Of a stretch of DNA of 64,000 bases, positions 3,764 to 39,222 are shown one piece after another (position 1 is the first letter of the stretch; each line of letters starts with the position of its first letter). The stretch spans positions 1,426,001 through 1,490,000 of the forward strand of contig CM022368.1 in assembly GCA_011800155.1 (NCBI GenBank), written 5' to 3'. The notes beneath the pieces were generated by a model, which worked only from the letters and a program-made list of their open reading frames with translations, made no database searches and was not told the origin of the DNA. Origin of the DNA: Flammulina velutipes. Taxonomy: Eukaryota; Basidiomycota; Agaricomycetes; Agaricales; Physalacriaceae. The position numbers and the translations under genes are program-made.

Positions 3764-6700
3764 ATGGAAATTTGGCCTACAGATGCCCGAAGTATAGCAA
3801 GCTCGTCGAGGAAAGAAGGAAAAAACAAGCAGAACGCGTATTACCAACACTTGAATCTTGGACATGGATTAGTAGCAGCCTTGGCTTTGCAAGACCGCGG
3901 TGATCAACTTGGGTGGACGTCTGTCGTTAAAGAATTCGGTGAGCTCGACACTCGACGAACCATCTTCCTACTTATGATGACCAGACACGCGTCACGCGCG
4001 GTTAAACGCGAGCAAGTCTGTCAATGTCTTCCCCGCTACCCGTTCACTGGCCGTCCGTACTCCTCAAATTAGCAATGCGCAGAAGGGAGAACAAGGAGTA
4101 AGCCATCGTAGAAACAGGCCTCTCCCATACTGACCTGGCTCCTAGGCTAACTTTTTGCGCAAACATTTTCCAGATGTTGATGTCACCGCTGAGCTGATGC
4201 GTGAGGAAATCGAGAGTGATGCAAAAATAACAGCTGAATTGCAAGAGTTCAATCCATACCACGGGAACCCAATCACACATCTACAAACTCTCAGCCGCCA
4301 GTATCTCGCGTTTTCTATGGGTGAAACAGGCGGCGATCTGAGTACGTGCTGCATACCCTAGCAGCAATTACTTCGCTTATCATCTACAGATATATCCTCT
4401 TTTCGAGGCAGCACTCTGAAAGCCTGCGCGAAGCCTGTCAAAACCTTCCCGACTCCCATCACACAAATTGTGGCTGAAAGTGCAAGCGTTGGAAACAGTT
4501 AGTTGTGTGATCCACCTCCAGTTGAAATGCTAAGCATACCTTCTAGACACAACGTTGGCCGTTAGGACATTTAGTACCACTTCGGTTCTAAAATTGTGGA
4601 ACGACGACCCTCATCTACCTGCGCAGGTAGAAGAAATAAACACCATATCGAGTGCTGACGTTGGACGACGAGAAATTGTTGACATCCATTTGCCCTCTTC
4701 CGACGAAGCCATCGTCATCAACGACCAAGGAATGGCATACATATATGACCGTGCTTCAACTGTTTTCTCTCGGTGATTTTTCTTATGGACGATCGAGTCG
4801 CTTTCACTAACTCTCATAAAAAAGGATTTTCAATTATGCGGACTTGGATTCAACTTCTGAAGTCTTGGCCGACGATTTCTGGCGTGCTGCGGGAACAGGG
4901 ATGCCATCCAAGTACTTGCTGACGTCGGGAAAGACTGCGAGACATATAGACAGCAGAGTATGTGAAGAAGCTCCCGTGTTACCATTTATTGACCGAACAT
5001 AGGGAGAAACAGATTTCGTCGAGCTCTTTTCCGTCCATCGTCCTGCGGACTACGTAACAGGTCTTGAAAGTCAAGATGGGCACCTCATTCGGCTTTGTAC
5101 GACAGCTCATTTGCTTTGGATCGATGTGCGATATCCCGGAAGACCTCTCCTCGGAATCTCTCATGAACGCCGCTATGACAGGACATTAGGCACTCAGACG
5201 TTGCACTTGAATGGAGGCAAGTTACCTTCAGAGCTACCCATCAACTCCCTCTGATAAACTTTCTAGGGCCCCTCACTTTTTTGACTTCCCTCAAGAACGG
5301 CGTGGTCAACGTTTACGATGTCTCTCGTGCAGATGAAGACAGTTTATTGCACGCCAATCATCAACCCTACAACCTGACTTCGCGCACCGAGTCCTCGCAA
5401 GCGACACTTGGTCAAACTTTTGTCTCGTACCTCTCCGAAGACACAATCGGATTTTTCAGACTCCAAGAAGATGGCGGTGTGCACCGCATTGATTGTGGAT
5501 TTAGTCGCGAAGAAGACGATTTTCTATCCAATCTCGTGTGGCCCGACGATGTGAAAGCGTTGAACGCGAGTACTCCCTCTTTACGGAGAGGCTTGGGTCC
5601 GCTCGGTGCCAGAGAGTACATGGAAGAAGATCTCTCTGCCGCTTATGTTCGTGAGTTTGTGGTGGATTCTAAGCATCATACCCGTTATTCACAATACTAT
5701 GCAGGTATTCACCAAGGGGTACTCAACAAATTGGATGTTCGGGTGGCAAGCGTCATATATGATCTAGCTGAAAATGCCTCTTCGTTCTGGCAAGAAGCTA
5801 ACATGCCATTGGAGCATGTGTTAACATTGTACGCTTTTTCTTTTGCTGTATTCGATCTGTTATTTTGACACGCCTTGAAGTTTTGATGTCATGTTCCGAG
5901 CTGGAGATGAGCCAGAGACATCCTACCGCTCTGACTTCCTCACGGGAAGTGTCATGAGCTCGACGAAAGGCTATCAGGCTTTACAACAAAAACGCTTGAC
6001 AGCTGGTGCTCTGGCTAGCGGAACGAAATGGCATTGGAATCTGGAAGACAGCCTTCGTGCACTCGATCCTACATACGCCGGCGACATTGATGAAATCTAT
6101 AACCGCCTGGGTGACTATGACTTGCAGGATACCGCACTCTCCGATTCCGATTCCAGCGTCAGATGGGAGGATAAGGCTCGTGAACAGGTCGCCGTCGATC
6201 TGGCGATGTCCGGACATGTGTACTCCCTCCTGCCTTTCAAACGATCCGATCCTATTCCCGATGATTTGGAAACAATGACCAAAGCTCTTACAATCGATGC
6301 AGAACCACCGCCCGTTCATTTTCATTATCTGCTCCCCGTCCCGCGATCCCGTGCGCCGAAGAGACGTGTCGATCTCACTCAGGATTCAGAAGAGGAAGAT
6401 GAGGTTCTGGAAGTTGACGAAGAACCTGAAGAGCTGGACCTTCCTCTTGGCGTACGGCTCTTGCTCAAAGATTGGGATGTCGGGAACGATCCTGGTCTAT
6501 TCGCCTATATCGATCCCTACACCGACGCCAAGGAGGATGCCGCAGCGATGATGCCAATCAACAAACCGAAGATTCAGGCTGTTCCACAGGTTGCTGTTGT
6601 CAGGCCACAAGCTCCTCCTGCAATTGCGAGAGCGAGCTCTCTCAGAAATTTAACACACCAAAATCTATTCTTTGGATCACAACCGAATCTGCGCGACCTC

Positions 6701-13665: not shown

Positions 13666-14824
13666 ATGGCCTTCACGACGTACGTTGCGCCACGCTTCAT
13701 CTATAGCTCTTGCTAATTTCTTGCTCTGTCTAGTGTCCCGACCGCTTCGGTGTGTTCAATTCCAGCTAGCGATGCCATCGTACTCAAAAAATTGTTAGGC
13801 GATCGAAGTGCCAGAAACCCTCCTCAAAAAACGCAAGCAGACTGAAAAGGCCCGTGAGGAGCGCCTAGCTGCTGCTGCTGAAGCCCGCAAGGTTAGCTCA
13901 AAGTTCCATTTGCACAATTATGATGCATACGATATACCTTTCGACGAATGGCTAGCAATAGCGATGAAGCCTTCAATTAACCATCTTTCGGGACTGAACA
14001 TCTAATCAACCTTTGGATATGCGCTAACCTTCTTATCTCCAGGCATCGAAGGCGAAGCGAAAGGTCATATTCAAGCGCGCAGAATCATATGTGAAAGAGT
14101 ACTTGACCCAGGAGAAGGAGGAGATCAGGCTGAAGCGAGCTGCGCGTACCGCTGGTGACTTCTATGTGCCCGCACAGCCCAAAGTTTACTTTGTCGTGCG
14201 TATTCGTGGGTGCGTTGACTGTCTATTTTCCCCGGACTGTTCTGATGGGCGATTTTCCTCAGTATTAACGAGATCGCACCCAAGCCCCGTAAAATCTTAC
14301 AACTCCTCCGTCTCCTCCAAATCAACAACGGTGTCTTCGTCAAGGTCACCAAGGCTACCCAACAAATGCTCCGTCTGGTAGAGCCTTACGTGACATATGG
14401 GTATGCACAATTCGCTTGACAACTGGGTTCGAAGGAGTTGACCTTTTCTCAGTGAACCTAACCTTAAGACTGTGCGCGAGTTGATCTACAAGCGCGGTTA
14501 CGGCAAGGTCGACAAGCAACGCGTACCTCTTGCCAACAACGCTGTCATCGAGGAGGCACTCGGAAAATTCAACATCCTCTCCATTGAAGATTTGGTCCAC
14601 GAGATCTTCACCAACGGCCCCAACTTCAAGCAGGTCCGTCATACACGTTTCTTATTTATCGTTGTCGCTCATCGTCCATCTAGGCATCGAACTTCCTGTG
14701 GCCATTCAAGCTTTCCAACCCCAATGGTGGCTGGAGACAGCGCAAGTTCAAGCACTTTGTCCAGGGAGGCGACTTTGGTGACCGGGAGAGCAACATCAAC
14801 AAGCTCATCAGGCAGATGAACTAG
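13666..14824 (+). CDS. RPL7: 60S ribosomal protein L7 (uL30)
   Basis: Cytosolic large-subunit protein. Seven exons, 13666-13679, 13734-13749, 13799-13891, 14043-14209, 14263-14400, 14453-14633 and 14684-14824, total 249 residues, the usual length. Recognisable stretches are [18 protein letters not shown] at the N-terminus, [18 protein letters not shown], the RNA-binding region around [31 protein letters not shown], and the end [18 protein letters not shown]. The first two exons are only 14 and 16 nt. Intron 3 (13892-14042) is 151 nt, three times the local norm, and holds a probable snoRNA. Identity is firm. Confidence 0.97.
13915..14003 (+). ncRNA. Probable intronic C/D box snoRNA guiding 25S rRNA 2'-O-methylation (snR39b/snR39-like)
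   Basis: Lies in the oversized third intron of RPL7. A C-box-like ATGATGC (13920-13926, 6 of 7 to RTGATGA) and a D box CTGA (13994-13997) are 78 nt apart end to end, normal for the class. A C'-like GCGATGA is at 13961-13967. The 13 bases before the D box, 13980-13992, ACCATCTTTCGGG, are the exact complement of the conserved 25S rRNA segment CCCGAAAGAUGGU. By the D+5 rule the paired target is the G of CCCG, equivalent to yeast G805. Yeast RPL7A and RPL7B introns host snR39 and snR59, which modify A807 two bases away. A terminal stem is not obvious. Boundaries are approximate. Confidence 0.72.
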
Positions 14825-37762: not shown

Positions 37763-39222
37763 ATGACTGTTGCCTATATAATCCGCAATCTGTGGTCTTT
37801 CCCTCATATACTATGCCTCTCTGTCGTTGTGCGTGTTGCACTCATCCTGTATAGCGAATGGCACGATGCACGCTCGCTGGTCAAGTATACGGACATCGAC
37901 TACCGGGTCTTCAGCGACGCGGCGTTTTATCTGCTGCACCCAGGACCAGGGAATCAGGCGCAAGGACCGTTACATGGTTTATTTGGGAATGTTGGAGAGT
38001 ACGTGGCAGTCATGTCGTTGCGAGAGCGAAGTTCTCATGATTTAATTGTGCAGCCCGTATACGCGTGAAACATACCGGTACACTCCACTTCTCGCCCTCC
38101 TTCTGGCGCCCAACGAATGGCTGCATCCATCTTTCGGGAAATACCTGTTTGCCGCCTGCGATATCATTAATGGAATCCTCATATACCGACTTCTCCTCAC
38201 TGCCATCCTTCCCCGGAATCTAAAACAAAAAGACAGTACTAAACGGCCCGTAGAAGAATTGGCCACGAAATATGCTGCTCTCCATCTTCTCAATCCCATG
38301 GTCTTCTCGATATCCACGCGCGGCTCCTCGGAATCTGTTCTATGCCTCTTTGTGCTGTTGACTCTATACGCGGCACTCAGAGAACGGTGGACCGTGGCCG
38401 CTGTGCTTCTGGGTTTGAGCACACATTGGAAAATCTATCCTGGTGTGTATGGGCTCGCGTGTCTGGGAGCTATCGCAGGCGGCGGGAACGGCCTTGCCTC
38501 CCTCATCACTCGCAAAACGATCACATTTGGTGTCGTGAGCCTCTCTACGTTTGTCCTGCTAGGTGCAGGATGCTACGCAGTGTATGTGCTACCTCTCTAC
38601 CTCGACTCGTGTATTAATATGGATCAATATAGGTGGGGATATCCATTCCTCCATGAATCATACCTCTACCATCTACATCGCCTGGACCACCGTCATAATT
38701 TCTCGCCATACTTCTATATGACCTATCTCACTTATACTGGGTCCTCTGAAGCGTTGTCTTCCCTCCAAAAGATTCTACGGTCGCCTCTGGTCAGCTTCCT
38801 TCCTCAAATGATCCTCACATTAGGATCTGGCCTACTCTTTGGTAGCAAGGAATCCCTCATATTTGCATGGTTTGTGCAGACAGTATTTTTCGTCATTTTC
38901 AACAAAGTCTGCACCTCGCAGGTGTGTATTTACGACATGAATGTTGTTGACATGGATCTGATCAAGTGTATTGCAGTACTTCTTGTGGTATCTTCTGCTC
39001 CTGCCGCTGTTGCTTCCGTCGGTATATATGTCTCGACGGAAAGCGATAGCGTGCGTGGCAGTGTGGGCTGGTGTTCAAGGCCTGTGGCTCAGCGAGGCGT
39101 ATCAGCTTGAGTTTATGGGTCGCAATGTATTCCTTGGGCTATGGCTACGCGGTCTAATCTACGTGGTTGGGAATTGTTGGGTCCTTGGGAGTGTCATGCA
39201 GTCATACAAGAAGAGTCCGTAG
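37763..39222 (+). CDS. GPI mannosyltransferase 1 catalytic subunit (PIG-M / Gpi14)
   Basis: ER membrane enzyme adding the first mannose to the GPI-anchor precursor from dolichol-phosphate-mannose. Exons 37763-37998, 38054-38581, 38633-38921, 38977-39222 give 432 residues. Multi-pass GT-C fold: helix 1 (FPHILCLSVVVRVALILY), then the luminal catalytic loop KYTDIDYRVFSDAA with the D-x-D motif. Family motifs ETYRYTPLLALLLAPNEW, FSISTRGSSESVL, THWKIYPGVYGL, HRLDHRHNFSPYFYMTYL and FNKVCTSQYFLWYL all fit PIG-M. Convergent with the GMF gene, with only 45 bp between the stop codons. Confidence 0.93.

Follow-up and report, generated by a model that had tools for sequence, protein, structure and literature searches.

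The RPL7 gene and its third intron

The window, by which we mean the whole 64-kb stretch of Flammulina velutipes DNA that was analysed, carries the gene for ribosomal protein L7 on its forward strand. The third intron of this gene contains the boxes and guide of a C/D-box snoRNA related to snR39. The features are as follows.

13666..14824, + strand: RPL7 (uL30) gene, seven exons, stop codon at 14822-14824 (spliced frame, protein matches)
13892..14042, + strand: host intron 3 of RPL7, phase 0, 151 nt, 5′ GTTAGC, 3′ CTCCAG (GT...AG, spliced frame)
13913..13999, + strand: predicted C/D-box snoRNA, snR39-like, extent taken from the Rfam RF01197 match (30 bits, E 0.0049)
13920..13926, + strand: C box ATGATGC, 6/7 to RUGAUGA, one mismatch (direct reading and script)
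13952..13955, + strand: D′ box CTAG, degenerate, aligned with CUAG of the snR39 consensus (Rfam alignment and script)
13961..13967, + strand: C′ box GCGATGA, 6/7, one mismatch (script)
13980..13992, + strand: D-box antisense guide ACCATCTTTCGGG, 13 bp to 25S CCCGAAAGAUGGU (direct reading, Rfam alignment and script)
13994..13997, + strand: D box CTGA (direct reading and script)

The seven exons splice to a complete 249-residue frame with no internal stop, as checked by script, and 13892-14042 is therefore assigned as a GT...AG intron. The protein is 95% identical to the 60S L7 of Hymenopellis radicata and 94% identical to that of Mucidula mucida, the best of the 120 matches listed; L7 chains in the PDB also match the product, with E values down to 4e-91. 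The genome surveyed comprises 38.1 Mb in 23 contigs, and a search of it located a single RPL7 gene and no second one. The remaining five introns measure 54, 49, 53, 52 and 50 nt; intron 3 is around three times the length of each, some 100 nt longer.

Hosting of a snoRNA by RPL7 is described as common to ascomycetes and basidiomycetes (PMC2246297; PMC8476143), in agreement with a preliminary description of this DNA, which had held the host gene to be common to distant fungi. The intron position is reported to be kept in 82% of fungal species, intron-poor basidiomycetes included, and the 2021 study in question ties this to the snoRNA (PMC8476143). In yeast, the second introns of RPL7A and RPL7B carry snR39 and snR59, both assigned to A807 (PMC5295604), an assignment also given in PMC2806949. 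The snoRNA lies in intron 3 here and in intron 2 in yeast, which may or may not be one conserved position.

Boxes, guide and predicted target

The C box (from 13920) and the D box (from 13994) are spaced as in C/D-box snoRNAs, where some 60-90 nt separate them, and the 13-bp complement to rRNA, one base upstream of the D box, lies within the 10-21 nt of antisense sequence found upstream of a D or D′ box. The preliminary description had recognised an intronic C/D snoRNA in RPL7 with a 13-bp rRNA match; the boxes and the spliced frame confirm the former and the script, which places the guide at 13980-13992, the latter. It had also put the guide directly before the D box. The position stands, but the two do not abut, A13993 forming a single spacer base between them. 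As it had noted, the C box has one mismatch and the terminal stem is weak; both box-adjoining model pairs are non-standard in the Rfam alignment.

The D+5 position is C13989, which is the base arrived at earlier, the spacer having already been allowed for in that count. C13989 sits opposite the G of CCCG in the target, which we take to be yeast G805 on the basis of the yeast 25S sequence. The A807 equivalent falls at D+7, and the only CTGA adjoining the guide puts the G at D+5. Judged by target base, with the G numbered in this way, the RPL7 snoRNA is of the snR39b kind and not of the snR39/snR59 kind, since D+5 faces the G two bases before A807. The published yeast sites Gm805 and Am807 are two bases apart, in agreement with this numbering (PMC2806949).

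In a study of mushroom mycelia, ten LSU passages carry the target word, seven as ACCATCTTTCGGG and three as CCCGAAAGATGG, and the word is thus present in mushroom-forming fungi (PMC12287172). Its presence in F. velutipes is one that we infer, because neither search for the organism's own rDNA found it: a 174-base yeast 25S probe, used without a positive control, matched nothing in the 23 contigs, and a 5.8S search of the same contigs gave no match.

A second methylation guide upstream of D′ was also considered. The candidate TTCGACGA (13940-13949) pairs over 8 bp only with the yeast 25S word UCGUCGAA. A match of eight bases is expected by chance according to our own estimate, and the D′ guide was therefore rejected. 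By eye, UCGUCGAA appears in two of the ten mushroom LSU passages and is replaced by UCGUCAAA in eight (PMC12287172).

Family membership

At gathering thresholds no Rfam family passes anywhere in the 64-kb window. A permissive search of 1.2 kb gave seven weak families, with snR39 (RF01197) at the top; its 30 bits lie below the gathering cut-off of 40 bits, and a routine Rfam scan would for this reason miss the RPL7 snoRNA. A survey of Pleurotus with Rfam lists seven snoRNAs and none of the snR39 family (PMC5040776), which fits the sub-threshold score seen here. The snR39 model aligns end to end and keeps the D′ box, C′ box, guide and D box in register. Three of the other families, TtnuCD19, SNORD96 and nematode ceN109, match through the guide, each under its own cut-off; the remaining matches in the 1.2 kb look unrelated.

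Across the genome snR39 has three matches at E <= 10, and the one in the RPL7 intron scores highest. The snR39 search also matches eight of 14 prokaryote controls, none of them over the cut-off, and the score alone is therefore no proof. A match on contig C4 (26.2 bits) is without the guide end and the D box and was judged to be chance.

The RPL7 snoRNA shares with RF01197 its RPL7 host, the D′/C′ region, the overall length and the arrangement of guide ACCAUCUUUCGGG, one base and CUGA seen in the consensus. It differs in scoring below the gathering threshold and in its target, the yeast members being assigned to A807 and not to G805.

Second copy on contig C13

A pattern search with guide and D box located a second copy of the snoRNA intron.

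C13:1233745-1233890, - strand: second snoRNA intron copy, predicted GT...AG, 146 nt, 5′ GTTAGC (4746-4891 of locus L009)

Aligned from the final four bases of the exon to slightly beyond the D box, the two copies are 86.6% identical; the remainder of the C13 intron is weakly alignable to that of RPL7 (shuffle p 0.0055). Differences occupy 16 of 119 aligned columns: eight in the 5′ portion, five between C and D′, two (including a gap) between D′ and C′, and one past the D box. None falls in C, D′, C′, the guide or D. The longest identical run, 39 columns, spans C′ to D (permutation p 0.018, a modest value that comes from one pair of related copies). The C13 copy scores 25.5 bits with snR39, and in the 3.5 kb around it Rfam matches nothing else at E <= 1. 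From its sequence, this second intronic copy probably makes the same guide.

We considered what kind of gene hosts the C13 copy. It does not appear to be a remnant RPL7 gene, as the surrounding 9.9 kb yielded no RPL7 exon (best protein match E 9.7). Two frames across the predicted intron, of 150 and 165 residues, match no Pfam family, and a protein gene was likewise rejected. Compared with a large protein collection, the 150-residue frame has one match, which is nearly the same stretch from another sample read straight through the intron. The copy may sit in a non-coding host gene. A search of viral contigs found no relatives.

With two copies bearing the same guide, either the RPL7 or the C13 copy might be a decaying, unexpressed duplicate while the other does the work. 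The C box is imperfect in both, and yeast snR39 and snR59 are themselves described as redundant (PMC5295604). Against this, C, D′, C′, the guide and D do not differ between the copies, the changes falling in spacers and flanks, and RPL7 is the conserved host in other fungi (PMC2246297; PMC8476143). We regard such a duplicate as unlikely.

Guide occurrence against chance

The 17-mer formed by guide and D box, CCATCTTTCGGGACTGA, occurs at two places in the 38.1 Mb, among 21 matches of a looser pattern, against an expected count of 0.004 at even base composition. Both places are snoRNA copies, the RPL7 intron and C13. The 12-base guide core CCATCTTTCGGG by itself is not enriched, being found at five places genome-wide and at three in a reversed control; the core alone therefore means little and the box context carries the case. 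Within the window, allowing up to two mismatches, the core has eight matches compared with a shuffle mean of 5.4. One perfect 12-base match, at 38127-38138, lies in the exon of a PIG-M/PIG-U-like mannosyltransferase gene with no snoRNA family around it and is attributed to chance. At the other CCATCTTTCGGG places, on contigs C2 and C10, CTGA does not adjoin the match, as judged by eye.

Since the core also stands in the mannosyltransferase-like exon, the RPL7 match could in principle be another chance case in an ordinary intron. For a 13-mer match at one set position ahead of a D box, however, p is ~8e-5, taking ~5400 rRNA positions, a value that leaves the C, D′ and C′ boxes, the established host and family, and the C13 copy out of account. 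Chance complementarity is accordingly a very improbable account of the intron.

G805 or A807

The reading that we favour, at close to nine chances in ten, is that RPL7 intron 3 encodes a C/D snoRNA of the snR39/snR59/snR39b group that guides methylation of the G805 equivalent, the C13 copy probably providing the same guide. The sequence evidence indicates that the RPL7 snoRNA is real and probably functional; its expression, RNP assembly and methylation activity are what we infer from it. Splicing and debranching followed by exonuclease trimming would yield an RNA of ~80 nt in complex with the C/D core proteins. The D-box guide would then pair over 13 bp with CCCGAAAGAUGGU in 25S, and fibrillarin would 2′-O-methylate the base opposite D+5, the equivalent of yeast G805.

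Published tables give chicken, human, Arabidopsis and Plasmodium a guide for the G805 equivalent (PMC2653536; PMC2656528). The target is so listed for snR39b, vertebrate snR39B, plant snoR39BY and Plasmodium PFS8, which differ from the RPL7 snoRNA in having other host genes or genes of their own. The chicken guide is hosted by EIF4A2 (PMC2653536), while yeast snR39b is marked M and human snR39b I (PMC2656528). A search of C. parapsilosis, C. orthopsilosis and L. elongisporus is reported to have turned up neither snR39 nor snR59 (PMC5033589).

Rfam had annotated snR39, snR52, snR60 and snR61 in N. crassa, and a study of that fungus lists CD47 as intronic, with target 26S-Gm785 and snR39b as its counterpart (PMC2780460). 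The CD47 row is starred, meaning annotated earlier and undetected by experiment, yet its expression column reads N, R (PMC2780460). From the starred row, CD47 is apparently the Rfam-annotated snR39. Like the RPL7 snoRNA it is intronic, with a guide upstream of the D box and a target on the yeast snR39b row; it differs in being 75 nt long with a 16-bp match.

Could the RPL7 snoRNA instead guide A807, or both bases, through non-canonical spacing? The yeast snoRNAs in RPL7 introns, snR39 and snR59, are assigned to A807 (PMC5295604; PMC2806949), and the 13-bp duplex covers this base. No separate guide with A807 spacing was found. For an A807-type guide with core CCATCTTTC there was none among 54 genomic contexts, a search blind to shorter cores and to more degenerate boxes. 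Four of the 54 have a D-like box within 6 nt together with a C box of at least 6/7: the RPL7 and C13 copies, plus two at other spacings. The sequence ACCATCTTTCG has 37 genomic places, of which 30 were examined together with other loci. A807 spacing is seen in one of the 21 CTGA-linked matches, CCATCTTTCACCTGA, the sole candidate, which is without a C box of at least 6/7 in the 110 nt upstream. Set against A807, the D+5 position of the only CTGA adjoining the guide faces G, with A807 at D+7, and a G target is given for the apparent relative in N. crassa (PMC2780460). Guidance of A807 by non-canonical spacing thus seems quite unlikely.

Returning to methylation at G805, the preliminary description had explained the apparent shift by two bases either as an snR39b-type activity that had moved into the RPL7 intron or as a lineage with altered spacing. 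Neither explanation is upheld. The Rfam snR39 consensus, CUUUCGGGGCUGA, has the same guide-to-box spacing as the RPL7 snoRNA, and CD47 is listed with the same G (PMC2780460). The shift is no local oddity. The exception is rather the published A807 assignment of Saccharomyces snR39 and snR59, the comparison being one of assignments and not of sequences. Either Saccharomyces changed, or the spacing in yeast snR39 and snR59 may differ from what the consensus shows.

One scenario, offered tentatively and as the less probable side of an even guess, is that the fungal RPL7 snoRNA originally guided G805, a role retained in mushrooms (in two copies here) and apparently in Neurospora. The A807 target of Saccharomyces snR39 and snR59 would then have arisen later, when the guide-to-box spacing changed by two bases, a separate snR39b taking over G805.

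The Flammulina RPL7 snoRNA is a member of a known family and is new as a species record, together with its second copy. A literature search found no paper title naming this gene in this lineage and no report of the second copy. The family's host and guide were already known, and the base predicted as target is the one given for its apparent Neurospora member. We therefore regard this well-supported mushroom snoRNA, present in two copies, as a sound but largely ordinary find that leaves the wider view of intronic snoRNAs in fungi unchanged. It does sharpen a small question, namely whether, from one fungus to another, the same host intron directs methylation to neighbouring bases.

Comparative signal in read-through proteins

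Two public protein predictions, P0122 and P0121, read through snoRNA-bearing introns. P0122, from the large protein collection, runs through RPL7 intron 3 and is 98% identical over the part searched. Codon changes number 0 of 27 in the snoRNA body and 4 of 23 in the flanks (Fisher p 0.038); this p is modest, and the comparison is blind to silent changes and comes from a single pair of related sequences. Read-through mispredictions of this type can offer a hidden source of comparative data on intronic RNAs.
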